Origin: Deltaproteobacteria bacterium
GTDB lineage: Bacteria > Desulfobacterota > Binatia > DP-6
DNA: 64,000 nt
Direction of reading: 5' to 3'
Assembly: GCA_005888095.1 (NCBI GenBank)
Contig: VBKF01000102.1
Span: forward strand, 1 to 64,000
Shown here piece after piece: positions 1 to 14,344 of this stretch; position 1 is the stretch's first letter, and every line of letters starts with the position of its first letter. The notes below the pieces were generated by a model. The model was not told the origin of the DNA. It was given only the letters and a program-made list of their open reading frames with translations, and made no database searches. The translations under genes and the position numbers were made by a program.

Positions 1-846
1 GAGGTGCCGGACAACCCGAACGGCTGCGTGCCCCGGGGCACGCAGGGGTGCTGCGATCAGCCGGGCTTCATCGTCCCGACCTTCTTCGTCAACATCCTGG
101 GCGGCCTCTGCTCGCGCGTGGACCAGATCGCATGCGGCGGTGGGGTGGTGAACAGCTCCAACCCGCAGACGGGCGACAACGACGTGAACAAGACCGGCGA
201 CACGAGCGATCCGGGGGCAGACTGCTGCTACAACGGCCACCCGGCCTCGGAGTGCCTCAACAACACGAACCTGAACGATGATCCGAGCCTGACGGCGCAG
301 GGGGGCTGCAATCCCAACGGGGCGGGCAAGGACTACAAGGGGAAGATCGTGCGCACGATCGGGAATGGCAGCCACGACGCGGACGGTATCCACTTCCGCC
401 TCGTCACCCCAGAGCTGTCGACCACCTGGACGGACGGCCAGAGCCCGCCGGGCACCTGCGCTCCCGGATCGACGTACGACGACGGGGAGCTCCTGGTGAG
501 CCAGCTCATCCTCAAGGCCGAGCCGACGACGGCAGGGGCGTCGGGCTCTTTCACCGACCAGAACGGTGACGGCTGCAAGCGCGCCGGCGCCGGCTTCATC
601 GCCGCCTCGAATCTGCAAACCGATGGCCCCATCGCCGTGCCGGGAGCGCAGGCCGGAGGGCCCGCGCGCCCGCAGTCGTACGACGGCACGCAGGGTTCGG
701 TGGCGGCCGCGGTGAGCGAGGTGTTCTCGGGCCCGAACTCGCCGATCAGGGACATCGGGTTCGTCGCGATCACACCCTTCATGCCGGCCGACGTGGTGCC
801 TGCGCAGAGCTGCAGCTGCACCGTGGAGCCGGGTTGTCCGGAGTAG
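1..846 (+). CDS. Cys-rich secreted protein, 3' part only
   Basis: The reading frame is open from the first base, so the gene begins outside the window; 281 residues and the stop are visible. The sequence closely matches the C-terminal half of the protein at 949-2838, including the runs GCCDQPGFIVPTFFVN, STTWTDGQSPPGTC and the terminal CSCTV-x3-CPE. It is rich in paired cysteines, Asn, Gly and Asp and has no membrane segment, consistent with an exported disulfide-bonded domain. I do not recognise a named family and infer no function. It is the first of three tandem paralogs and the closest to the second, suggesting a fairly recent duplication. Confidence 0.8.
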   Translation, partial: EVPDNPNGCVPRGTQGCCDQPGFIVPTFFVNILGGLCSRVDQIACGGGVVNSSNPQTGDNDVNKTGDTSDPGADCCYNGHPASECLNNTNLNDDPSLTAQGGCNPNGAGKDYKGKIVRTIGNGSHDADGIHFRLVTPELSTTWTDGQSPPGTCAPGSTYDDGELLVSQLILKAEPTTAGASGSFTDQNGDGCKRAGAGFIAASNLQTDGPIAVPGAQAGGPARPQSYDGTQGSVAAAVSEVFSGPNSPIRDIGFVAITPFMPADVVPAQSCSCTVEPGCPE

Positions 847-948
847 CGGGGTTCAGGCGGTGCCGTTGGTCATCGGAGCCGATTTATCGCGGGGGAGCCG
901 CCCTTCCGTCATACGTACGATCCACCGAGATCAGAGGACGAACGCTCG

Positions 949-2838
949 ATGAAAAGTGCCCTTCCCTCTCCCCCCGGCGTCGAGGCCGCCGCGCCCGCGA
1001 TCCGCTCGCCGCGGAACGCGAGCTGGAGAACCCCGGCTTGCCTGCTCGTGGCGACGTTCGTCGCCGTCGGCGGTGCGTCACCGAGCCGCGCCACGTCGCT
1101 GCCGGGCGGCGGACCCGCAGCAACGGACTGCTACGTGGTCCTGAACGCTCAGGGGACGGCCCTCGCGGCGCGGCCGAACCGTCTCGAGTGCAAGGATGGC
1201 GACCCGCAGTGCGACCAGGACGGCGATTGCCACAACGGGAGCTGCAAGTTCCGCGTACGGGTATGCATCGACCAGGACGGCTGCCAGGCGCCGTCCGCCC
1301 TGCGGAGTCTCCAGATAGGCCCTGCGAAGCTCGCCATCCCACGGCCGACGACGCTGAGTGGAGCCGCCTGCGGCGACTTCGCCGACGTCCCCGTCTCGCT
1401 GAAGGGAAAGGGAAAGACCCGCCCTGGGAAGCAGGTGATCGTGCTCAAGGCTCGGGCCCAGGGCGCGAAGAGCACGGACATCGACAAGGACACCCTCGTG
1501 TGCTTGCCGCGCCCCGCGAGCGAACCGTGCCCGACGACGACGACGAGCACCCTCCCGCCCATCGTCGTGCCCACCACTAGCACCAGCACGAGCACGACAT
1601 CGACCAGCGCCACCACCAGCACGATCGTCACCACCACCACGATGCTCGGCGGTACCAGCACCACGACGACGACCCTCTGCCCGCCCCTTGTCGTCGGCCA
1701 GCCGATCCCGAATACCTACAGGCTCAACGGCACGACCGGCGAGAAGCGATGCACCACCAATTCGGCGTCGAACCGCTTCGGCCTGTGCAGCACCGACGCC
1801 GACTGCGGCGGGACCGCGGGTGCGTGCATGACACTTCCGTGGGTCACGGCCGACGGGCAGGTGATGCCGTTCTCGACCGGGACGCAGACCACGTTCACGG
1901 TGGCGACGGAAGGTGCCGCCCCGATGTGCGAGCACAACCTCTGCATCCCGTGCGGCAATCCGAACGCGTCCTGCGCGGGCATCCCCGGCTGCGAGGTGGC
2001 GGACAACCCGAACGGCTGTGTCCCCCGCGGCACGCAGGGATGCTGCGACCAGCCGGCCTTCATCGTCCCGACCTTCTTCGTGAACATCCTGGGCGGCCTC
2101 TGCTCGCGCGTGGACCAGATCGGGTGCGGCGGCGGCGTGGTGAATACCTCCAACCCGCAGTCCGGCCATAACAAGGTGACCAAGAACGGCGACACGAGCG
2201 ACCCCGGGGCGGACTGCTGCTACAACGGCCACCCGGCCTCGGAGTGCCTCAACAACACGAACCTGAACGACGATCCGACCCTGGCGGCGCAGGGGGGTTG
2301 CAGCGTCAACGGGGCGGGCGTCGACTACAAGGGGAAGATCGTGAAGGCGATCGGCGGCGGCGCCACCGACGCGCCCGGCATCCACTTCCGCTACACCGTG
2401 CCGGAGCTCTCGACGACCTGGACGGACGGCCAGAGCCCGCCAGGCACGTGCGCCAATGGCTCGACGTACGACGACGGCGAGCTGCTGGTCAGCCAGCTCA
2501 TCCTGAAGGCCGATACGACGACGTCCGGGGCAACGGGCTCCTTCACGGATCTGAACGGCGACGGCTGCAAGCGCGCGGGGGCCGGCTTCATCTCCGCCAG
2601 CAACGCGGCGACCGACGGCCCCATCACCGTCCCTGGAGCGGAATCGGGTGGGCCGGCTCGGCCTCAGGCGTACGAGGGCTCGACCGGGTCCGTAGCGGCC
2701 GCGGTGAGCGAGGTGTTCTCAGGGCCGAACTCACCGATTCGTGACATCGGCTTCGTCGCGATAACCCCCCAAAATGCGGCGGTGGTCGTGCCCGCGTTGA
2801 GCTGTAGCTGCACCGTGCAGCCGGATTGTCCGGAGTAA
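949..2838 (+). CDS. Cys-rich secreted protein with Thr-rich linker
   Basis: 629 residues. A long basic N-terminus and hydrophobic stretch (about residues 27-45) look like a signal peptide. Residues about 50-190 form a first Cys-rich module (CDQDGDCHNGSC, then a Lys-rich GKGKTRPGKQ stretch). A Thr/Ser linker of about 48 residues follows, then a large Cys-rich C-terminal domain shared with both flanking genes. An AGAGGA stretch lies about 10 bases before the ATG. The architecture fits an extracellular or surface protein. No catalytic motif was recognised. The C-terminal domain is nearly the same as the partial gene upstream; the N-terminal module recurs in the gene downstream. Confidence 0.85.
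   Translation: MKSALPSPPGVEAAAPAIRSPRNASWRTPACLLVATFVAVGGASPSRATSLPGGGPAATDCYVVLNAQGTALAARPNRLECKDGDPQCDQDGDCHNGSCKFRVRVCIDQDGCQAPSALRSLQIGPAKLAIPRPTTLSGAACGDFADVPVSLKGKGKTRPGKQVIVLKARAQGAKSTDIDKDTLVCLPRPASEPCPTTTTSTLPPIVVPTTSTSTSTTSTSATTSTIVTTTTMLGGTSTTTTTLCPPLVVGQPIPNTYRLNGTTGEKRCTTNSASNRFGLCSTDADCGGTAGACMTLPWVTADGQVMPFSTGTQTTFTVATEGAAPMCEHNLCIPCGNPNASCAGIPGCEVADNPNGCVPRGTQGCCDQPAFIVPTFFVNILGGLCSRVDQIGCGGGVVNTSNPQSGHNKVTKNGDTSDPGADCCYNGHPASECLNNTNLNDDPTLAAQGGCSVNGAGVDYKGKIVKAIGGGATDAPGIHFRYTVPELSTTWTDGQSPPGTCANGSTYDDGELLVSQLILKADTTTSGATGSFTDLNGDGCKRAGAGFISASNAATDGPITVPGAESGGPARPQAYEGSTGSVAAAVSEVFSGPNSPIRDIGFVAITPQNAAVVVPALSCSCTVQPDCPE
1532..1677 (+). repeat. Low-complexity Thr/Ser-rich coding repeat
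   Basis: Runs of ACG, ACC and AGC codons encode a Thr/Ser/Pro linker that separates two Cys-rich modules. It is an interdomain spacer, probably extracellular, and part of the coding region. The downstream paralog has only a very short version (about four Thr), so linker length varies among the paralogs. Confidence 0.85.
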
Positions 2839-2859
2839 GCGACGGAGGGAGGAACGAAA

Positions 2860-4566
2860 ATGCGAACCAGCATGCCCAGCAGTCTCACCACCCGCTGCCT
2901 CCTCGCGTTCCCCCTGGTGTTGGGAGCGGTGGGCGCAGCGTCGGTCGGCTCGGCCACAACTCTGCCGGGTAAGGGCCCGGCGACCTCGGAGTGCTACGTG
3001 GTGCTCCAGGCAACCGGCACGAAGGCCGCGAGCGCCCCGAACAAGCTCGTGTGCCAGGATGGCGATCCCACCTGCGACCAGGACGGCGACTGTCACAACG
3101 GCAGCTGCACGTTCAAGGTGCAGGCGTGCCCGAACCAGGCCGGGCTGGCGCCCTGCACGCCGGGTTCGCTCACCAGCCTCACCGCGAAGGCCAAGGGTGT
3201 GCCGCTTCCCGCTCCGCCGTCGCTGAGCGGTTCGCAATGCGGCGGAACGCTCGATGTTCTCGTGAGTCTCAAGGGCAAGAAGAAGAACAAGCCGGGGAAG
3301 ACCAAGGTCGTCCTGGTGGCCACCGCCGCGAGCGGTAAGCCGAAGAAGGACCGGGATACAGACACCCTGGTCTGCACCCCCTTTCCGGCCGGCCAGACCT
3401 GCCCGCTCCGTGGACCGGTCACGACCACCACCCTGCCGACCAACGTCGTCTGCGAACCCCTGGTGCGCGACGGGCAGGGAATCCCGGGGACCTACCTGCT
3501 GCTCTCGGTGAAGGGTCCATACCTTTGCCAGCAAAGCGCGCAGCAGAACCGATTCGGTCCCTGCAACTGCTCCGGGGGCGAGTCGGTGTGCGCCGACCCC
3601 GCCCATTGTGGTCCGGGGCAAGAGACGTGCGTCCAGACCCCGTTCGCGGTCGCGGACGGCCAGGCGCTTGCCTTCCCCCCTGGATCGATCAAGACCGTGT
3701 TTTCGGTGGCCGCCGAAGACCCGGCCCCCAGCTGCAGCCACACGGCCTGCGTCACGTGCGGGAACCCGGACACGCCCTGCCCGGGGATCCCAGGGTGCCA
3801 GGTGCAGGGGAACCCGGCCGGTTGCATCAGGACCACCTGCTGCGACACGCCGGGCTTCGCCTTGCCGACCTTCAAGGTAAACATCCTGGGCGGCGTCTGC
3901 TCGCGCCTCGATATGTACAGCTGTGGCTTCGGCGTGGTGAACACGTCGAACCCTCAGGTCGGGGATAACGAGATCACCAAGTTCGGCGACTCGAGCGACC
4001 CAGGGCCCGACTGTCAGTACGGGACGGCTGACGATCCCCCCAAGAAGCCGTGCGTAGTTACCGGTGTCGGGAGTGACATCAAGGGCAAGATCGTACGCAC
4101 CGTCGGCAACCAGGCGTTCGACGCAAACGGAATCCAGTACCGTCTGGCGATTCCCGCCCTCTCGACGACCTGGATGGACTCGCAGAGCCCGCCCGGCCAA
4201 TGCCTCGATGGTTCGACCTTTGACTCCGAAGAACTCCTGGTCACCCAGCTCATCCTCAACGCCGAGTTCACGACGGCAGGGGCCACCGCCGGCTTCACCG
4301 ACATGAACGGCGATCACTGTGCGCTGGCGGGCTCCGGCTTCACCAGGAACGCCGACCCGGGACCCTACACGCTCGGCTCGCCACCCGCCGCGCCGCAGCC
4401 CTACGATGGGAGTTCGGGGTCGGTCGCCGTCGCCGCCGGGATAGCGCTCAGCGGCCACGGGCCGCTGTACGATATTGGCTTCACGGCCGTCTTGCCGGAC
4501 GCGCCGATCACCCGCCTGCCGACGCAGAGCTGCACCTGCATCCCTGTCGCAGGCTGTCCGGAGTAG
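2860..4566 (+). CDS. Cys-rich secreted protein, third paralog
   Basis: 568 residues, starting 21 bases after the previous stop behind a strong ribosome-binding site (GGAGGGAGGAACGAAA). A signal peptide spans about residues 1-35 (hydrophobic core LLAFPLVLGAVGAAS). The N-terminal Cys module CDQDGDCHNGSCTFKVQAC matches the upstream paralog. A Lys-rich patch follows, then a short TTTTLP spacer and a C-terminal domain with NILGGVCSR, STTWMDSQSPPGQC and the terminal CPE. It is more diverged than the first two copies. Tight spacing suggests cotranscription with the 949-2838 gene. Function unknown. Confidence 0.85.
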   Translation: MRTSMPSSLTTRCLLAFPLVLGAVGAASVGSATTLPGKGPATSECYVVLQATGTKAASAPNKLVCQDGDPTCDQDGDCHNGSCTFKVQACPNQAGLAPCTPGSLTSLTAKAKGVPLPAPPSLSGSQCGGTLDVLVSLKGKKKNKPGKTKVVLVATAASGKPKKDRDTDTLVCTPFPAGQTCPLRGPVTTTTLPTNVVCEPLVRDGQGIPGTYLLLSVKGPYLCQQSAQQNRFGPCNCSGGESVCADPAHCGPGQETCVQTPFAVADGQALAFPPGSIKTVFSVAAEDPAPSCSHTACVTCGNPDTPCPGIPGCQVQGNPAGCIRTTCCDTPGFALPTFKVNILGGVCSRLDMYSCGFGVVNTSNPQVGDNEITKFGDSSDPGPDCQYGTADDPPKKPCVVTGVGSDIKGKIVRTVGNQAFDANGIQYRLAIPALSTTWMDSQSPPGQCLDGSTFDSEELLVTQLILNAEFTTAGATAGFTDMNGDHCALAGSGFTRNADPGPYTLGSPPAAPQPYDGSSGSVAVAAGIALSGHGPLYDIGFTAVLPDAPITRLPTQSCTCIPVAGCPE

Positions 4567-4594
4567 CGCCCGCAACGCGAGGTCGCGGCTTGCG

Positions 4595-5944
4595 CTACTT
4601 GCCGTACTGCGAGAGCGCGTCGAGGTCGAACAGCTTTGGATCGAAGACCAGGCGTCCGTCGAAGTTCGCCGTGCGTGACGACTTGATGCCGGCCACGGTC
4701 GCACGCTCGAGCTTGATGCTCTCCGCACACTGGAAGGCCTGGTTGGTTCCCTGCACCCAGTCCTTCTTGCCGTCCGGCCGGATGACGGTGTGCGGATTCC
4801 AGGCCATCACCTGCTCGTCGTTGAGGAGCTCGCCCTTCCAGCCGAACTTACGGTTCCAGGCGCCCTGGAAGCTGACCTTGTCGAGGTAGAGCTCGATCTT
4901 GCCGTAGAGGTAATACTTGTCGCGCGGCGTCCCCTCGATGACGTAGAACCGCCGCTTCGCGAGGCCGGCTGCGATGGGCGCCCAGGACACGCCCCTCCAC
5001 TGAGAATCCATGTAGCCGAGGAACTTCAGGTCCGGCCAGTCCGCGCGCCAGCCTCCGCTCGGGAGCCAGCTGTTCGACGACTTCCCCTGGAGGTTCATCG
5101 GATCGACGAGACGGAGCGTGTCGACCTCGCCCTTCAGCTTCCAGTCGAAGTCCTCCGGCTTGCCGTCGAAGAACGGGCCGTCGTCCTGGCTCATGTCCGA
5201 CCCGAGGAAGCCGTCGGAGCGATTGGCGGGGCTGACCGCCCGGACCCGCCGCAGCGCCGGGACGTAGGCCCACGAGGAGTCCCGCTTCTGCGGGTCGCGA
5301 TAGCGCCAGCTGAGCGACCCCGTCCCCTGCAGGTCGTTCGGGCTCATCACCACGACGAGCTGCTGATAGAGGAAGTTCTGCGGGTTGTTCTTGACCCGCT
5401 CCTGCTCGGGGACGCCGTCGTAGTACATGAAGCGCACGTCCACGTCGAGCCGGCGTTCGAGCGATGCCGGGCTCATCATGTTGAGCTGCGACTCGGCGCG
5501 CAGGTTTCCGAAGTAGTAGGTGCGGTAGTAGAAGTTCCACAGGATCTTGACGCCGGCCGAAGGATCGGCGGCGTCGATGTCGGGAAACGGGAACCCGATG
5601 ATGTAAGCGGGCTGCTTGCCACTGGCGCTCTCCAGGATCTCGCCGAGCTTGCCGGTCGTGTAGCGGCCGGCATTCTGCTTGCTCCCCGCCAGGAAGTCCT
5701 CGGGCCAGTTGTAGACGTTTGCCGGCCAGTCGGAGATCGGATTGACGTACTCGTTCTTCTCGTAGTGCTTCAGGATCTCCGGCGGGAGGAGGCCCTCCGC
5801 TCGCTGCCAGTTGCGCTGATCGAGCACGTCGCCCGGCTTGAGGCCATCGGACGGCGGGGCGCCGCCCGGGGCATCGGCCAGGACGCCGCTCGCGACGAGC
5901 AGGATGAGCATCACTACCACCGGAATCAGGACGCGCGTTCGCAT
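4595..5944 (-). CDS. DUF1329 family exported protein
   Basis: 449 residues with a signal peptide (MRTRVLIPVVVMLILLVASG). The family signature is clear: a GxxLDQRNW-like segment after the signal peptide, FPFPDIDAADPSAG, and the conserved block YVPALRRVR followed by NRSDGFLGSDMSQDDGPFFDGKPEDFDWK. DUF1329 proteins (PF07044) are periplasmic or outer-membrane-associated and thought to adopt a LolB-like fold; in other Proteobacteria they often sit beside RND exporters, but none is in this window. The start is supported by GAAGGGAT upstream. It is divergent from the paralog at 6200, and a third copy lies at 7554-8873. Confidence 0.85.
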   Translation of the reverse strand: MRTRVLIPVVVMLILLVASGVLADAPGGAPPSDGLKPGDVLDQRNWQRAEGLLPPEILKHYEKNEYVNPISDWPANVYNWPEDFLAGSKQNAGRYTTGKLGEILESASGKQPAYIIGFPFPDIDAADPSAGVKILWNFYYRTYYFGNLRAESQLNMMSPASLERRLDVDVRFMYYDGVPEQERVKNNPQNFLYQQLVVVMSPNDLQGTGSLSWRYRDPQKRDSSWAYVPALRRVRAVSPANRSDGFLGSDMSQDDGPFFDGKPEDFDWKLKGEVDTLRLVDPMNLQGKSSNSWLPSGGWRADWPDLKFLGYMDSQWRGVSWAPIAAGLAKRRFYVIEGTPRDKYYLYGKIELYLDKVSFQGAWNRKFGWKGELLNDEQVMAWNPHTVIRPDGKKDWVQGTNQAFQCAESIKLERATVAGIKSSRTANFDGRLVFDPKLFDLDALSQYGK

Positions 5945-6109
5945 GACGATCCCTTCGTTTGCGGGCCCCGAATGGCCCGGCTCTCCTTAGTCGTTCCAAA
6001 GACGCGCGACAAGATAGGTGCGGGACGTCTCCCCGATTGCCGGCCCCGTCTCTCCCCGCCTTTCCCGACACCCGGCCGGTGGACGCGGGGTTCGACGCGT
6101 TCTTTTCCA

Positions 6110-6139
6110 TTGACCTGCGTCCGCCTGCCGTCGTACGCA
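6110..6139 (+). promoter_or_regulatory. Promoter-like element upstream of DUF1329 gene
   Basis: TTGACC at 6110-6115 is followed after 18 bases by TACGCA at 6134-6139 and preceded by a T-rich stretch. The T-tract/ATTGAC arrangement and the GCCGTCGTA preceding or covering the -10 position recur before the propeller gene at 11472. It lies in the 255-base divergent region between two DUF1329 genes. The -10 match is weak, so this is a candidate only. Confidence 0.35.
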
Positions 6140-6199
6140 GGACGCGGCGCAACCTCGGCGCTCGACACATCACGCCATGCCGACCGGCGAAAGCGATCC

Positions 6200-7540
6200 G
6201 TGATCCCGACGCTCTGCCGCCGTCGGCGCCCACGGCAACCCTGGCTCGCGGTCGCCGTCCTCGCGCTCGCGTCCGTCCCTCCCGCTCGCGTCGCCAGGTC
6301 CGAGCTCCGGCCCGGCACCGTGCTGGGCCGCGAGAACTGGGAGGAGGCGAAGGGCCTCCTGCCCGACGAGTTCCTCGAGGCCTACCACCGGGGCGACTTC
6401 CGGCACGAGATCCGGAGCTGGGACCCTCCTCGCCTCGGGGACGAGCCGATCTTCGCCGCGGCGCTCAAGGAGAACGAGGGGCGCTACGACCTCGACGCCG
6501 AGGGCTCGATCGTCGAGCGCACCACCGGGAAGCCTGCCGGCGAGATCGTGGCCTGGCCGTTTCCGAAGATCGACCCCGCCGATCCCCGGGCGGCGGCCAA
6601 GATCGTCTGGAACTACTTCTACACGCTCTACTATGGCGGGAACGGCCACTACCGGGCGGACCTGCTGTGGATCTCCCGCCACGGCCTCGACCGCTCGATC
6701 AGCGTCGACGCCTTCTTCAAGCACTACGACGGCCAGCATCCGCGCTTCCGCGAAGCGAACGGCCGCAAGGACCTCCTGTCGCAGACCTTTGCCGAGGTGC
6801 TCTCGCCGGCCGACGTCCAGGGCATCCTGTCGCTCACCTGGCGCTATCGTGATCCCCACGCTCGTGACTCGGTGTGGACCTACGTGCCGAGCCTCCGCCG
6901 CACTCGCCAGGTCTCTCCCTCGAACCGCTCCGACGGTTTCCTCGGCTCGGATCTCTCGCAGGACGACGGGCCGTACTTCGACGGCAAGGTGCAGGACTTC
7001 GAGTGGAAGCTGCTGGGCGAGCAGGACCTGCTGGTGCTCTTCGACCGGCCGTCGTTCGACCAGCCGGCGCTGCTCAGCCGGCTCCCCGAGGGCGGCTGGC
7101 GGATGGTGATCCCGGGCGGGGCCCGGGTCGGATTCCAGCTGCCGGACTGGAAGGGCTCCCCGTGGTGCCCCGTCCAGGAGATCCTGGTCCGCCGGCCCCA
7201 CTGGATCGTCGAGGCGGTCCCGAAGGACCGGTACTACCTCTACGGGAAGATCGTCTTCCGCTTCGACAAGGACATCTACCTCGGGAGCTATGCGTCCAAG
7301 TACGACTGGAAGGGCATGCTGCTCAACTCCTACGTCGCGGTCCGCACCAACGTGATCCGGGTCGCACCCGGGGAGTTCTGGGGATGGGCGGGCGGCGCCG
7401 TCGCCCTCGGGGTCAACTGGAAGCTCGACCGGGCGAGCACCGCGGGCATCGTCGCGGGGACGGACGTCCCGGCCGACTCGAGGATCCCGCTCTCCACCGA
7501 CGTCTTCTCGCTCCAGCGCCTCCATTCCGACGGGAAGTAG
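6200..7540 (+). CDS. DUF1329 family exported protein
   Basis: 446 residues from a GTG start chosen because it directly precedes a basic N-terminus and hydrophobic segment (LAVAVLALASVPPARV) typical of a signal peptide. The frame is open much further upstream, but that part reads as antisense of the neighbour. Family motifs are present: GTVLGRENWEEAKGLLP, WPFPKIDPADPRA, YVPSLRRTRQVSPSNRSDG and SQDDGPYFDGK. Compared with its two neighbours it is more diverged, notably in HYRADLLWISRHG. It is convergent with the copy at 7554-8873, only 13 bases away. Probable periplasmic role; substrate unknown. Confidence 0.8.
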   Translation: MIPTLCRRRRPRQPWLAVAVLALASVPPARVARSELRPGTVLGRENWEEAKGLLPDEFLEAYHRGDFRHEIRSWDPPRLGDEPIFAAALKENEGRYDLDAEGSIVERTTGKPAGEIVAWPFPKIDPADPRAAAKIVWNYFYTLYYGGNGHYRADLLWISRHGLDRSISVDAFFKHYDGQHPRFREANGRKDLLSQTFAEVLSPADVQGILSLTWRYRDPHARDSVWTYVPSLRRTRQVSPSNRSDGFLGSDLSQDDGPYFDGKVQDFEWKLLGEQDLLVLFDRPSFDQPALLSRLPEGGWRMVIPGGARVGFQLPDWKGSPWCPVQEILVRRPHWIVEAVPKDRYYLYGKIVFRFDKDIYLGSYASKYDWKGMLLNSYVAVRTNVIRVAPGEFWGWAGGAVALGVNWKLDRASTAGIVAGTDVPADSRIPLSTDVFSLQRLHSDGK

Positions 7541-7553
7541 CCGCCCTCATCTA

Positions 7554-8873
7554 TTATTTCCCGAACCGGTTGAGCGTCTGGTAGTCGAAGAAGTCGGGAT
7601 CGAGCGGGATGCGACGGTCGTTCGGCGGATCCGCGCCCGGGCCGTTCATGCCCGACGCCGTGGCGCGGTCCGCCTTGATGTTCTCCGAGAGCTGGAGCGC
7701 GAAGGTGGCCCCCCACCACCGCTCGTGCTCGTTGAACGGTGCGGTGGCGTACCCGGTCACCTCGTAGACGTTCAGCAGCTCGCCCCGCCACGAGAACTTC
7801 CGGTTCCACGCGCCCTGCCACGTCTGGTCGTCGATCCACAGCTCGAGCTTGCCGTAGAGGTAGTACCGGTCCTTGGGCACGCCCTCGAGGACCCAGAACT
7901 TCCGCTTCGCGAGGCCCGCCGCGGCCGGCGCCCAGGGCACCCCCTTCCAGTCCTTCACCATGTAGCCGACGGTGCGGTCGTTGTTGGAGAAGATCGACCG
8001 CCACCCGCCGCCCGGCAGCGGCTTGCGCTGCGAGTTGCCCGCGACGCTGTCCGGATCGACGAAGCGCAGCCCATCCTTGTGGCCGACGATCTTCCAGTCG
8101 AAGTCCTCGGGCTTCCCATCGAAGAAGAAGCCGTCATCCTGGCTCTGATCGGAGCCGAGGAAGCCGTCGGAGCGGTTCGCGGGCGAGATGGCGCGGACGC
8201 GGCGGAGCGCCGGCACGTAGGCCCAGCTGAGATCGCGTTTCGTCGGGTCCTTGAAGCGGTAGCCGAGCGCGGCGGTGCCCTGCAGGTCGTTCGGGGTCAC
8301 GCTCACGGCGAGGAACTGGAAGAGCAGGTTCTGGGGGTTCTTGGGCGGCGAGTATGGCTTCGGCTGCCCGTCGTAGTAGAGGAAGAACACGTCCTGCACC
8401 GAGGCGCGGTCGACGCCGCTCCGGCTCACCCAGTTGAGTAGCGTCAGGTTGTGGCTGTTGCCGCCGGTGTAATAGGCGTAGTCGAGGTTCCAGAGCGCCT
8501 TGTAGCCGGCCTCGGGATCGTCCTCGCGGATGTCGGGAAACGGCAGCCCGCGGATGTAGTCGGGCCGCGTCCTGGTGTCCTTGTCGATCGGCGACTTGTG
8601 CTCGTCGAGCACCAGGTGCTCGGCGTTCCACTTCGTCGCCTCCGCGAAGCCGTCGTCCCAGCTCCAGCGCGAGTTCGGGAAGTCGACGAGCTTGTTGGCG
8701 TACTCGCCCTTCTTGAAGTGGTTGTAGATCTCCGGCGGCAGCTGGTCCTTCACCTGGTCGACGTTGCTCTGGTCGACCATCGTGCCGGCCTCGATCGCCT
8801 CCGCCCTCTCGCACGGGCCGGCCGTGATCCCGATCACGAGCCCGAGTGCCAGAGCCGTCACGCCGTCGCGCAT
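7554..8873 (-). CDS. DUF1329 family exported protein
   Basis: 439 residues. A signal-peptide-like N-terminus (VTALALGLVIGITAG) is followed by a mature chain beginning EAGTMVDQSNVDQVKDQLPP. It carries the family block YVPALRRVRAISPANRSDG and SQDDGFFFDGKPEDFDWK, and a C-terminal RYYLYGKLELW segment shared with both paralogs. The ATG is preceded by GGGAGGT at good spacing. Three complete DUF1329 genes within 4.3 kb indicate local duplication. The SDR gene downstream of its promoter side is divergently transcribed. Confidence 0.85.
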   Translation of the reverse strand: MRDGVTALALGLVIGITAGPCERAEAIEAGTMVDQSNVDQVKDQLPPEIYNHFKKGEYANKLVDFPNSRWSWDDGFAEATKWNAEHLVLDEHKSPIDKDTRTRPDYIRGLPFPDIREDDPEAGYKALWNLDYAYYTGGNSHNLTLLNWVSRSGVDRASVQDVFFLYYDGQPKPYSPPKNPQNLLFQFLAVSVTPNDLQGTAALGYRFKDPTKRDLSWAYVPALRRVRAISPANRSDGFLGSDQSQDDGFFFDGKPEDFDWKIVGHKDGLRFVDPDSVAGNSQRKPLPGGGWRSIFSNNDRTVGYMVKDWKGVPWAPAAAGLAKRKFWVLEGVPKDRYYLYGKLELWIDDQTWQGAWNRKFSWRGELLNVYEVTGYATAPFNEHERWWGATFALQLSENIKADRATASGMNGPGADPPNDRRIPLDPDFFDYQTLNRFGK

Positions 8874-10065: not shown

Positions 10066-11367
10066 ATGCCGACCGACCGCCGTCTTCTGTCGCTGCTCGT
10101 GGCCGTCGCGCTGCTGTCGATGCCGCGCGCGCGGGCGCACGCCTTCGACGTGGTCATCAACGCCCAGGGCGAGTTTGCCGATGCGTACCTGGTGAACGGG
10201 ACCGCGTTCCCGCCCAAGGTCGTGTTCATTGACCCCGACCCCCCGAACCCGGACAGCATTACCGGGACGCCGCCGCGCGTCGGCCGGCACGTGAACGGCA
10301 AGCTCTGCTTCTTCCCGCGCCGCGTGGGACACAACGGCCAGTTCGTGCTGGCCGACGACACCTATCGCGAGTCGTGCCTCGACCGGAACCCGCCCCAGGC
10401 GCGCTGCAGCGTGACCCGTCGCGGGAGCCGCTTCTATATCGGCCGCGACCCGGACGGCTGGGCGGTCTTCCGGCCAAACGGCAAGTGGAAGAAGCAACAC
10501 ATCCACACGGCCTGGCCGGGCTTCGACACGACACCCCAGGGGACGGATCCCGGCCAGCCGCCGCAGGGCAACGCCGACCCGCAGGGCTGCGTCTTCGATG
10601 CGCAGGGCAACATGTGGGGCAACGACGTCGGCAGCGGCGACCCGACCGACATGGACCCCAGCCACCACGGCGCCTTGCTCGTTTTCTTCCCGAGCCCGCG
10701 GCACAAGTACGATACGTATTGCTTCCTCGACAAGGACCTGTCGCAGGCGGGCATGCCGGCGATGGACGAGACGGGCAACATCTACATCGCGGAGACCGGC
10801 CGGGGAATGATGTGGAAGTTCTCGCCACCCTTCCCCGCGAGCGCCGCGGACTGCAACAATCCCGATCACCTCGTGACCACCCCGCCGACCAAGACGCCGT
10901 TCCCCACACCCGGCGAGCCGACGCCGGCGGCGATCGTCCGCGTTCCCGGCACGGACCACTGGTACATCGACAGCGTCCTCCTGCCCGGGGTGCCGGGCCA
11001 GGGAGGGGGACTGATCAACGAGTACGACGCGAACGGCGTGCTCGTCCGGAACATCGTGCCGAGCAACATGCTCCTGAACCCCCTCGGCATGGACGTCGGC
11101 TCGGACGGGACCCTCTACTACGCGGAGCTGAACCTCAACCCCGACACCTCCACCGGCTGTGGCCGCGTCTCGATGGTCAGGTTCGTCGGCGGTACGCCGC
11201 AGCCGCCGCAGGTCCTGGGCAAGAACCTCAGCTTCCCGGACGGCGTGACGGTGGTGGATTCGTCGCGACTCCGGGTCAACTTCCTGAAGCTGCCCCCCGC
11301 CCCTGAACCGGACCCCCGAACGTGCAACGGGGGAGGCGGCTCACCGAGCGGCGCATTCATCGACTGA
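10066..11367 (+). CDS. Exported beta-propeller-like protein (SMP-30/NHL type)
   Basis: 433 residues with a signal peptide (LLVAVALLSMPRARA, then AFDVV). Repeated segments such as CVFDAQGNMWGNDVG, AMDETGNIYIAETGRG, LGMDVGSDGTLYYAE and NLSFPDGVTV resemble strands of SMP-30/gluconolactonase or NHL propellers. These folds bind small molecules or hydrolyse lactones, but metal ligands cannot be assigned here. The start is fixed by GTAGGAGAAATCGCC before the ATG. It is followed 104 bases later by a paralog with the same leader, evidently a tandem duplication. Function unproven. Confidence 0.75.
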   Translation: MPTDRRLLSLLVAVALLSMPRARAHAFDVVINAQGEFADAYLVNGTAFPPKVVFIDPDPPNPDSITGTPPRVGRHVNGKLCFFPRRVGHNGQFVLADDTYRESCLDRNPPQARCSVTRRGSRFYIGRDPDGWAVFRPNGKWKKQHIHTAWPGFDTTPQGTDPGQPPQGNADPQGCVFDAQGNMWGNDVGSGDPTDMDPSHHGALLVFFPSPRHKYDTYCFLDKDLSQAGMPAMDETGNIYIAETGRGMMWKFSPPFPASAADCNNPDHLVTTPPTKTPFPTPGEPTPAAIVRVPGTDHWYIDSVLLPGVPGQGGGLINEYDANGVLVRNIVPSNMLLNPLGMDVGSDGTLYYAELNLNPDTSTGCGRVSMVRFVGGTPQPPQVLGKNLSFPDGVTVVDSSRLRVNFLKLPPAPEPDPRTCNGGGGSPSGAFID

Positions 11368-11413: not shown

Positions 11414-11443
11414 TTGACTCGATCCGGGCGGCCGTCGTATGGA
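11414..11443 (+). promoter_or_regulatory. Promoter-like element before second propeller gene
   Basis: TTGACT (11414-11419) and TATGGA (11438-11443) are separated by 18 bases, with a T5 tract just upstream. The same CGC-T-tract-ATTGACT sequence occurs upstream of the 10066 gene (around 9951-9965), although no -10 is evident there. The distance to the ATG is about 30 bases. Confidence 0.4.
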
Positions 11444-11471
11444 CGGCGCCGGTCGAACAGGAGAAATCGCC

Positions 11472-12761
11472 ATGTCCATCGCGCGTCGCCTGGCATTCGT
11501 CCTGGCCGTTGCCCTGGCTGCCCTGCTCCTGCCGCGTGTGTCGGCGCGCGCCTTCGACGTCGTGCTCAACGCCCAGGGCGAGTTCATGGACGCCTACCTG
11601 GTGAACGGGACGGCGTTGCCGCCCAAGGTCGTGTTCATCGACCCGGACCCTCCGAATCCGGACATCCTCGGCACGCCGCCCCGCGTCGGACGGCACGTGA
11701 ACGGCAAGCTCTGCTTCTTCCCGCGGGCCAGCGGACTCACCGGCAAGTTCGTGGTCGCCGACGACACGTATCGCGAGTCCTGTCTCGACCGGAACCCGCC
11801 GCAGGCGCGGTGCAGCGTCACCCGTCGCGGCAGCCGTTTCTTCGTGGGGAAGGACCCCGACGGCTGGGCCGTCTTCCGGCGCAACGGCAAGTGGGCGAAG
11901 CGCCACATCCACACGCCGTGGCCCGGCTTCGCCGAGACACCCCAGGGGACACCTCCGCCCGATCCGCCGCAGGGCAATCGCGACCCGCAGGGCTGCGCCT
12001 TCGATCCGCGCGGGAACATGTTCGCCACCGACGTCGGCAGCGGCGACCCGACCGATCCGAACCCCAACCATCGCGGCGCCTTGCTCGTCTTCTTTCCCGG
12101 CCCGCGGCACCGCTACGACACGTTCTGCTTCCTCGACAAGAACCTCGCGCAGGCCGGCATGCCCGCAATGGACGAGACGGGCAACCTCTACGTCCCGGAG
12201 ACCGGCCTGGCGCGGATGTGGAAGTATTCACCGCCGTTCCCGTCGAGCGCGGCGGACTGCGCCAATGCCGATCACCTCGTGACGACGCCTCCCACCAAAG
12301 CCTTGTTCCCCACCCCCGGCGCGGTAACGCCGTCGTCGATCGTCCGCGTCCCCCACACGGATCACTGGTACGTCGCCAGCGTCATCGTGCCCTTCCCGGG
12401 GGGGATCATCAACGAGTACGACGCCAATGGCGTCCTCGTCCGGAACATCGTCCCGAGCAACATGCTGAAGAACCCCCTCGGCATGGACGTCGGCACCGAC
12501 GGCACCCTGTACTACGCCGAGCTGAACCTCAATCCGGACTTCTCCACGGGGTGTGGCCGCGTCTCGATGGTCCGCTTCGTCGGCGGCATGCCGCAGGCGC
12601 CGGAGGTGCTGGGGAGGAATCTCAGCTTCCCGGACGGGGTCACCGTGGTGGACTCCTCGCAGCTCCGGGTGAACTTCCTGAAGTTGCCGCCGGCTCCCGA
12701 GCCCGACCCGAGGACGTGCAGCGGCGGGGGCGGCTCGCCGAGCGGCGCCTTCATCGACTGA
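11472..12761 (+). CDS. Exported beta-propeller-like protein, tandem paralog
   Basis: 429 residues beginning at the ATG behind CAGGAGAAATCGCC, the same ribosome-binding leader as the upstream paralog. The signal peptide is MSIARRLAFVLAVALAALLL. Nearly every segment of the 10066-11367 protein is matched, including VNGKLCFFPR, SCLDRNPPQARCSVTRRGSR, GMDVGTDGTLYYAELNLNPD and the C-terminal GGGGSPSGAFID. Two cysteines in CSVTRRG and CFLDKNL are conserved between the copies and may form disulfides after export. Function unknown. Confidence 0.75.
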   Translation: MSIARRLAFVLAVALAALLLPRVSARAFDVVLNAQGEFMDAYLVNGTALPPKVVFIDPDPPNPDILGTPPRVGRHVNGKLCFFPRASGLTGKFVVADDTYRESCLDRNPPQARCSVTRRGSRFFVGKDPDGWAVFRRNGKWAKRHIHTPWPGFAETPQGTPPPDPPQGNRDPQGCAFDPRGNMFATDVGSGDPTDPNPNHRGALLVFFPGPRHRYDTFCFLDKNLAQAGMPAMDETGNLYVPETGLARMWKYSPPFPSSAADCANADHLVTTPPTKALFPTPGAVTPSSIVRVPHTDHWYVASVIVPFPGGIINEYDANGVLVRNIVPSNMLKNPLGMDVGTDGTLYYAELNLNPDFSTGCGRVSMVRFVGGMPQAPEVLGRNLSFPDGVTVVDSSQLRVNFLKLPPAPEPDPRTCSGGGGSPSGAFID

Positions 12762-12779: not shown

Positions 12780-14285
12780 CTACGGCAACCGCAAGGCGTG
12801 CACGCCGCCGCCGTTCCCGTCGAACGAGTTCCCGGAGCCGACGAACAGCGTGCCGCCCACGATCGCCGCGCTCGAGTTGACCGACCCCGGCATGGTGAAC
12901 TCCTGGAGCGGCGTGCCGCTCGCGGCATCGAAGGCGCGCAGTGACGGCGGGATGAGCGCGCCCACGAACACCACGCCGTTCGCCACCGAGGACGCCCCGA
13001 AGGCGGGGGGGCCGTTCTGCTCCCACGCGACCGTGCGTGCGGTCGGGTCGAAGGCGTGCATGGTCGGCTGCTGGACGGGGGTGTCGCGCGGGTCGTTCGG
13101 ATCGCACGGCTGGCCGCCGAAGTCGCCCAGGGCCGTGCCGCCGTAGGCCCGCTGGCCGTCGAAGGCGGTCGAGCCGATGAAGCCGCCGGCAAACCCGCCG
13201 AAGACGACGTTGGCCCGCCACACGAGCTGGCCGCCGGGGTTGTGGGTGAGACGCTCGAGGACGTAGTAGGTCCCGTCCTTGCCGCCCACCCCGAGCCACC
13301 GGTTCGCCCCGAGATCGATGACGTTCGCGGAGGCACCGAAGTCGAAGTCGCAGACGTCGCCCTGGCGCGGGCGGTACGCCCACCGGACCCTGCCGCTCCC
13401 CGTGCGCAGCGCCAGGACGGCCTCGTGGTAGGGGGGCGGCGCGTCGGCGCCGCAATCCGCCGTGCCGAAGTAGACGAGGTGCTTCTTCTCGTCGACCGCG
13501 CCCGAGCTCCACACGTTGCCGCAGCTCCGGTTCTGGCCGAGCACCTTGCCGTGGACACGCACCGGCTTGCCGTTCGCGTCGAGCACCGGGTCCACCTCGA
13601 AGCGCCAGCGCTGCTTGCCCGTGCGCGTGTCGAGCGCGACGATCCCGCCCCGGTACCCGATCGCGCGGCCATCGGTCGAGGCGCCGACGAAGACCCTGTT
13701 CTTGAACACCGCCGGTGACGAGAAGATCTGGTTCGGATCGTTGGGATCGCTCTCGCAGTTCGGCGCCTCCGGGTTGCCGCAGATCACCTTCTTCCAGACG
13801 AGGGAGCCGTCCGCGGCGTTCAGGCAGTACACCGTCTTGCCGGCCCCGAAGTAGACCTTCCCCTTGACGACCGCCGCCGACGAGGTGATGAGCCCGCCGT
13901 CCGTCTCGACGCGGTCCTGGGGAGGAGTGGGTCCGCCGGGACACTGAGGGGGGATCGGGGTGATGTTGCTGTCGCAGTCCACCTGGAAGCTCCAGACGAG
14001 CGAACCCGAGGCGGAATCGAGCGCATAGAAAAAGCCGTCCCACGCGCCGACGTACACCCGTCCATCGACCACCGTGGGCGAGGCGCTGACCGTGTCCGAG
14101 GTCGGAAAGTCCCAGGCCGGCAGCAGGAGCGCCACGTTCCCGGCGTTGATGAGCGAGCCGGCGTTCGTGAAGCTGTGCTTCAGATCGCGGCCGTACATCG
14201 GCCAGTCGAGGGCCGCCGCAGCGGATGCTCGAAGGAGCACGCCGAAGGCCAGGATGATCACGACGCGACGATTCGATGGCAGCAT
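12780..14285 (-). CDS. PQQ-type beta-propeller protein, exported
   Basis: 501 residues. The ATG at 14285 follows GGAGGTG and opens a signal peptide (VVIILAFGVLLRASAAAA). The mature chain starts LDWPMYGRDLKHS, then has multiple W-motif blades: VYVGAWDGFFYALDSASGSLVWSF, VYFGAGKTVYCLNAADGSLVWKK, GGIVALDTRTGKQRWRF, AVLALRTGSGRVRWAY. This matches the quinoprotein alcohol dehydrogenase-like repeat family (PQQ_2/PQQ_3). No CxxCH heme site is present, and whether it binds PQQ or is a structural propeller (BamB-like) cannot be told. It is convergent with the propeller gene at 11472. Confidence 0.82.
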   Translation of the reverse strand: MLPSNRRVVIILAFGVLLRASAAAALDWPMYGRDLKHSFTNAGSLINAGNVALLLPAWDFPTSDTVSASPTVVDGRVYVGAWDGFFYALDSASGSLVWSFQVDCDSNITPIPPQCPGGPTPPQDRVETDGGLITSSAAVVKGKVYFGAGKTVYCLNAADGSLVWKKVICGNPEAPNCESDPNDPNQIFSSPAVFKNRVFVGASTDGRAIGYRGGIVALDTRTGKQRWRFEVDPVLDANGKPVRVHGKVLGQNRSCGNVWSSGAVDEKKHLVYFGTADCGADAPPPYHEAVLALRTGSGRVRWAYRPRQGDVCDFDFGASANVIDLGANRWLGVGGKDGTYYVLERLTHNPGGQLVWRANVVFGGFAGGFIGSTAFDGQRAYGGTALGDFGGQPCDPNDPRDTPVQQPTMHAFDPTARTVAWEQNGPPAFGASSVANGVVFVGALIPPSLRAFDAASGTPLQEFTMPGSVNSSAAIVGGTLFVGSGNSFDGNGGGVHALRLP

Positions 14286-14314
14286 GCGCGCACCTCCGTG
14301 CAAAAGGGCGCCGA

Positions 14315-14344
14315 ATTAGAAGGCAGCTGCGCACCGCAAGTCAA
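14315..14344 (-). promoter_or_regulatory. Sigma70-like promoter for the PQQ-propeller gene
   Basis: On the minus strand TTGACT (14344-14339) is followed after 18 bases by TCTAAT (14320-14315), five of six matches to the -10 consensus. Transcription would begin about 23 bases before the ATG at 14285. The element lies inside the last codons of the upstream nitroreductase-like gene and shares the T-tract/ATTGACT pattern with 6110 and 11414. Confidence 0.5.

Follow-up and report, generated by a model that had tools for sequence, protein, structure and literature searches.

A lineage-restricted cysteine-rich C-terminal domain in a tandem array of threonine-linked proteins from a Binatia bacterium

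Modular secreted proteins whose domains are joined by Thr/Pro-rich linkers are familiar from the cellulase-type architecture, and the C-terminal sorting systems of bacteria include the type IX CTD, LPXTG, PEP-CTERM and MYXO-CTERM. A third group of systems involves proteins with the domains DUF1302 and DUF1329. According to the cited passages of PMC10866462, the DUF1302/DUF1329 proteins PP_0765/PP_0766 of P. putida are essential for Tween20 metabolism and have been proposed to act in substrate transport. The related pair AmeA/AmeB of Castellaniella lies in a monoterpene efflux cluster, and AmeB is essential for growth on monoterpenes (cited passages of PMC6394551). One DUF1302 and one DUF1329 protein are also listed for the nanopods of Delftia (cited passages of PMC3110197).

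Here we analyze a stretch of 64,000 nucleotides (the window) from an uncultured soil bacterium, Deltaproteobacteria bacterium GCA_005888095.1 (Desulfobacterota; Binatia; DP-6), where an array of Cys-rich, Thr-linked proteins adjoins DUF1329 genes. Base 1 of the window is base 1 of contig C102 (VBKF01000102.1), and the genome of 5.46 Mb (G000) is assembled in 271 contigs.

The array and its C-terminal domain

A preliminary description of this DNA had proposed three paralogues lying head to tail, with a common C-terminal domain and a variable Thr-rich linker, and all of this was borne out. The three open frames (P1, P2 and P3; Table 1) are all on the plus strand. The P2 stop and the P3 start are 21 bases apart, and a purine-rich stretch resembling a ribosome-binding site precedes P3. 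Because C102 and the window start at the same base, P1 is open at its 5' end, and its linker and N-terminus lie outside the window. In a sister genome, the P1 counterpart has a Thr-rich linker and a cupredoxin-like front; the contig concerned (VBLD01000306.1, locus L011) likewise starts inside this gene.

Table 1 Features of the array and of the adjoining DUF1329 genes
Feature	Position	Strand	Remarks
P1	1..846	+	CTD of paralogue, 5' part missing; CTD 84% identical to that of P2 over 281 columns
P2, 629 aa	949..2838	+	Signal-peptide-like start (by eye), N-module A, Thr-rich linker, CTD
N-module A of P2, class-wide module	1096..1524, approximate edges	+	From alignment; 55/148 class genomes
Thr-rich linker of P2, about 50 aa	1525..1674	+	Tandem repeat at 1575-1640
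CTD of P2, orphan domain	1675..2838	+	Family with 22 conserved Cys columns
P3, 568 aa	2860..4566	+	Signal-peptide-like start (by eye), N-module A, short Thr linker, CTD
N-module A of P3	2938..3411, approximate edges	+	From alignment and class profile search
Short Thr-rich linker of P3, about 10 aa	3412..3441	+	
CTD of P3	3451..4566	+	52% identical to P2 CTD over 361 columns
DUF1329 (LolA-like) protein	4595..5944	-	Convergent with P3; 92% identical counterpart beside L045 array
Second DUF1329 paralogue	6143..7540, start approximate	+	89% identical counterpart beside L045 array
Third DUF1329 paralogue	7554..8873	-	Partial counterpart in L045, 93% over 104 residues

The C-terminal domain (CTD), about 370-390 residues long, closes all three proteins. 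With the CTD of P2 as query, tblastn found that of P1 with E 8e-153 and that of P3 with E 4e-102, far beyond chance. Every aligned copy from this genus that reaches the end terminates in C-P-E. The Thr-rich linker, measured by a loose rule under which long linkers run into neighbouring sequence, varies from the lengths given in Table 1 to more than 100 residues in both copies on contig C131, and it is absent from the second copy of locus L012.

The earlier statement that no known domain can be recognized also held for the CTD. Searches of P1-P3 at E 1 returned no family from Pfam and none from NCBIfam, whose sorting signals were included. A Pfam search of 11 CTDs at E 5 gave just two families with one member each (best E 0.2), and the CTD profile matched none of 177635 distinct PDB sequences at E 10. 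When three parts of the CTD were compared by profile, no internal repeats were found, and a profile comparison of module A with the CTD likewise found no similarity. AlphaFold gave a mean pLDDT of 30 for the whole CTD (9 alignment rows) and of 31 for its core (8 alignment rows). A literature search found nothing pointing to the CTD, a domain without any name to search by.

The signal-peptide-like N-termini, judged by eye, together with the cysteine content suggest that P1-P3 are exported, and the cell-surface system envisaged in the preliminary description is plausible. No C-terminal anchor was seen by eye in the CTD proteins. In the first copy of locus L024, the signal sequence closes with a lipobox-like V-A-A-C, and this copy could be a lipoprotein.

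Range of the domain and exchange of N-terminal modules

The genome that holds the window has seven CTD matches on four contigs: three on C102, two on C131, and one each on C67 and C207. Using the P2 CTD as query, we obtained matches in 4 of 148 genomes of the class, namely the three of this genus plus G445, which belongs to the same family. The latter carries one distant relative, placed in another genus of the family, which ends other than in C-P-E and from which a reverse search recovers the copies of the genus. A search with the CTD profile matched 5 of the 148 genomes; the fifth, G522, was left out of the relatives, its match covering 39 profile positions at E 0.0025. When 395 genomes sampled across the phylum were searched with a profile including the G445 relative, our own genome was the single match, in a coarse test that scored at most five candidates per genome; the sample included our genome and 15 others of its class, but none other of the genus. 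When the whole of P2 was used as query, 7 of these 395 genomes matched. The six besides our own did so in the N-terminal part of P2, one of them continuing through the Thr linker.

A tblastn search of P2 against plasmids and phages at E 0.01 gave no match, and the 49 pattern matches in viral contigs included no relative. We therefore rejected a mobile-element origin, as P2 and its CTD have no relatives in the plasmids, phages and viral contigs searched.

The N-terminal modules have a different range. Module A, which precedes the CTD in P2 and P3, is found by its profile in 32 of 72 genera of the class (55 of 148 genomes). Module B precedes the CTD on C131 (L024, two copies), on C67, on C144 of G447 and in the first copy of L012, the corresponding list of loci being L024, L025, L046 and L012; its profile matches 41 of 148 class genomes and 28 of 72 genera. 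Module C stands before the CTD in the second L012 copy, where there is no Thr linker, and matches 15 of 148 genomes and 9 of 72 genera. For all three modules, the candidates scored per genome were limited in number, and copy counts are therefore lower bounds. The preliminary description had suggested a lineage-specific system, which is true of the CTD (4/148 class genomes) and does not apply to the N-terminal modules (A 55/148, B 41/148).

In the first copy of L011, the CTD follows a cupredoxin-like segment cut by the contig start. This segment stayed below the cut-offs of both PF00127 (E 0.013; 16.3 bits vs 21.2) and the NCBIfam plastocyanin family (E 0.011; 16.1 bits vs 87.85). It contains a C-x2-H-x4-M loop, which we take to resemble the plastocyanin loop. 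A single CTD of narrow range has thus become linked to several modules of broad range.

Module A is also found in other company. It precedes, together with a Thr-rich stretch, an MtrC/MtrF-like multihaem cytochrome (L019), occurs together with a subtilase in a single frame (L022), and at six loci (L013, L014, L015, L017, L018 and L020) stands before a C-x4-C-H segment that, we assume, may be haem-binding. It looks like a general surface module of the class; among the proteins scanned, none of modules A-C had a Pfam match.

Duplication history and mosaic pattern

P1, P2 and P3 all have counterparts at the sister locus L011, where their order is unchanged and DUF1329 genes come next. Identity to the window is 89% over 186 columns for P1, 84% over 372 for P2 and 83% over 211 for P3, the counterparts of P1 and P3 being partial and gapped in the assembly. 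With a purpose-written Nei-Gojobori script for dS and dN/dS, we obtained a dS of 0.44 for each counterpart pair between the species and of 0.47 for P1/P2 within the genome. Since these values are nearly the same, the duplication of P1-P3 is probably not much younger than the species split, unless conversion has blurred the signal. The counterparts in the same order and these dS values do not support the recent duplication that had been claimed. The two copies on C131 are younger (dS 0.16). Across the three same-position pairs, dN/dS was 0.15-0.26, which indicates purifying selection. In L012, positions 4157-5130 hold an unrelated open frame that passes directly into a CTD tail, possibly through a scaffold join error.

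In the CTD tree, P2 clusters with the module-C copy of L012 (support 100/98) and not with the L011 gene in the matching position; the G445 row sits on a very long branch and its placement is unsure. We examined this conflict along the alignment in quartets. In the first quartet, made up of P2, its counterpart in L011, the second copy of L012 and the C131a copy, the sites in columns 150-299 that pair P2 with the L012 copy number 29, against 2 for the counterpart and 6 for C131a. The outer columns (0-99 and 350-449) favour the counterpart at 19 sites, with 3 each for the L012 copy and C131a. The intervening columns (100-149 and 300-349) decide nothing, with 6, 4 and 4 sites for the L012 copy, the counterpart and C131a. 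When P1 replaced C131a in a second quartet, whose informative sites begin only at column 100, columns 150-299 gave 17 sites for the L012 copy, none for the counterpart and 5 for P1, and columns 300-399 gave 3, 11 and 4, respectively. In a home-made neighbour-compatibility test, none of 1000 shuffles was at or below the observed value in any of nine settings. The presence and absence of a CTD loop is likewise scattered among the copies.

As read from the alignment, this mosaic pattern would fit gene conversion between paralogues. It may also be an artefact of chimaeric assembly. A chimaera is possible because these are metagenome assemblies, because all four copy-bearing contigs of G000 end inside or right beside a copy, and because P1 and P2 share an identical run of 59 bases.

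Neighbouring genes, possible function and comparison with known systems

Downstream of P3, three DUF1329 paralogues adjoin one another in alternating orientation (4595-8873). DUF1329 genes follow P3 in both genomes where that end is visible, namely in the window and in L045, which is L011 reversed. At the other side, the copies on C67 and C144 each have a Pfam-recognized DUF1302 gene on the same strand, whose end lies less than 200 bases upstream; the frame on C144 is broken. L012 starts with the last 14 residues of a DUF1302-type protein upstream of the CTD gene, so that, counting L012 by these 14 residues only, DUF1302 lies directly upstream of a CTD gene in all three genomes of the genus. 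Both families are thus encoded beside CTD arrays, and never on one contig. C67 carries a module-B copy and then, at the contig end, the start of a module-C gene, in the same order as L012. We hypothesize a single locus with the order DUF1302 - B - C - cupredoxin-like - A - A - DUF1329; it is offered as a hypothesis because no contig spans it and the G000 contigs of the DUF1302 and DUF1329 ends have no suffix-prefix overlap.

Further into the window, a tandem pair of secreted-looking proteins (10066-11367 and 11439-12761) shows 80% identity over 414 residues. For the first protein, all matches were below threshold, to NHL (E 0.03) and to the ScyD/ScyE family (E 3.4e-5; 23.5 bits vs a cut-off of 80); for the second, Pfam gave nothing at E 0.1. 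They are followed on the minus strand (12783-14315) by a PQQ-type beta-propeller protein (PF01011, E 2.2e-36). Elsewhere, a large protein with repeated PKD domains (L024, 3-4169) is encoded on the contig whose end is formed by the C131 copies.

We interpret P1-P3 as putatively exported, modular surface proteins of a family with a common plan: a putative Sec signal peptide, an exchangeable N-module, usually a Thr-rich spacer, and a conserved CTD head that would be rich in disulfides. The CTD would have arisen or been acquired in this lineage, become attached to class-wide N-modules and spread by way of tandem arrays. The role of the N-modules would be to position the protein at the outer surface or to contribute a further activity, redox or other, and the spacer, probably O-glycosylated, would keep the head away from the membrane. 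PMT-family glycosyltransferases are present in the genome (8 matches, 6 over the cut-off), but as 8 of 14 control genomes also have matches, this says little about glycosylation. An extracellular ligand, most likely a hydrophobic substrate, would be bound by the head and passed on to the neighbouring DUF1302 barrel in the outer membrane and to the periplasmic DUF1329 proteins. Such capture for DUF1302/DUF1329 is the most specific reading that the neighbourhood allows, and we propose it tentatively, as a possibility that we would not call probable.

Neighbourhood does not equal shared function, and three observations oppose ligand capture: there are CTD copies without such neighbours, many DUF1302 and DUF1329 genes without a CTD gene, and no C-terminal anchor seen by eye that would fix the proteins at the surface. 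With these DUF1302/DUF1329 proteins as queries, tblastn gave no match in the 14.3 kb analyzed of C131 or the 15.8 kb analyzed of C207, both with CTD copies, and none in the 20 kb around the G445 relative. Conversely, the genome has 5 matches to DUF1302 (PF06980), each of which exceeds the cut-off, and 14 to DUF1329 (PF07044), of which 13 do so, and contigs without a CTD match hold 4 of the former and 11 of the latter.

P1-P3 could instead be structural or adhesive surface proteins, serving in a biofilm matrix or in attachment to soil particles or cells, with DUF1302/DUF1329 as incidental neighbours. Arrays of multiple copies with many conserved cysteines, and spacers that range from none to more than 100 residues, would suit such a role. 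We consider it somewhat unlikely, as every genome of the genus has DUF1302 or DUF1329 adjoining a CTD array and no adhesin domain was matched among P1-P3 and the 11 CTDs scanned. A constant C-terminus behind a variable N-terminus would also be expected if the CTD were a sorting or attachment domain and the N-modules its cargo, as in the CTDs of type IX secretion; the C-P-E end of every aligned genus copy that reaches it and the different cargo types, one of them cupredoxin-like, are consistent with this. Nevertheless, the CTD is bigger than the modules it follows, the G445 relative has no C-P-E end, and P1-P3 match no Pfam or NCBIfam family at E 1, sorting signals included. Modules A and B, present in 55 and 41 of the 148 class genomes as against 4 for the CTD, need no CTD elsewhere. 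We therefore regard sorting as unlikely.

The mosaic pattern suggests yet another role, in which conversion would swap the central part of the CTD and so alter a loop exposed at the surface, with phages, predators or competitors exerting the selective pressure. The tree conflict, the opposed site counts of the first quartet (29/2/6 in columns 150-299 vs 3/19/3 in the outer columns), the absence of any comparable shuffle among 1000 in all nine settings and the scattered loop speak for such surface variation. Short-read metagenome assembly, however, can splice paralogues, as the exact 59-base run of P1/P2 would permit, and dN/dS of the counterparts is below 0.3, so that we judge surface variation quite improbable. 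In a combined scenario, the CTD would have colonized class-wide modules and would diversify by conversion into variable receptors or shields at an outer-membrane transporter for hydrophobic substrates; this we hold to be very unlikely. Returning to ligand capture, if the link to DUF1302/DUF1329 is real, the CTD proteins would be an extracellular partner for a transport system of still unclear mechanism. Modules A-C would be useful as new families when genomes of the class are annotated, and the CTD, with its clear boundary, strong conservation and narrow range, is a good case for studying the birth and joining of extracellular domains.

Compared with the DUF1302/DUF1329 loci for hydrophobic substrates, the CTD arrays are alike in standing beside members of both families that exceed the Pfam cut-offs, and differ in that the CTD proteins themselves match neither family; the cited passages on those loci mention no such modular secreted partner. 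The sorting systems share the conserved C-terminus and variable N-terminus, whereas P1-P3 match no family at E 1, have no hydrophobic tail by eye and carry a far larger CTD. In the module-B copies L025, L046 and L012, a C-G-N-G...G-E-x-C-D motif, which we take to be of the DUF4215 or Myxococcus Cys-rich repeat type, lies between linker and CTD. The motif is separate from the CTD, and the L025 copy has no match in Pfam at E 0.1 or in NCBIfam at E 1. With the cellulase-type proteins, the CTD proteins share a signal-peptide-like start, an exchangeable domain, a Thr-rich spacer and a second domain, but differ in that no catalytic domain was seen and that, among the proteins scanned, the CTD and modules A-C have no Pfam match. 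We conclude that the CTD has no match in the libraries searched and, among the genomes searched, is restricted to one lineage, and that the overall architecture is a variant of the familiar modular secreted protein.
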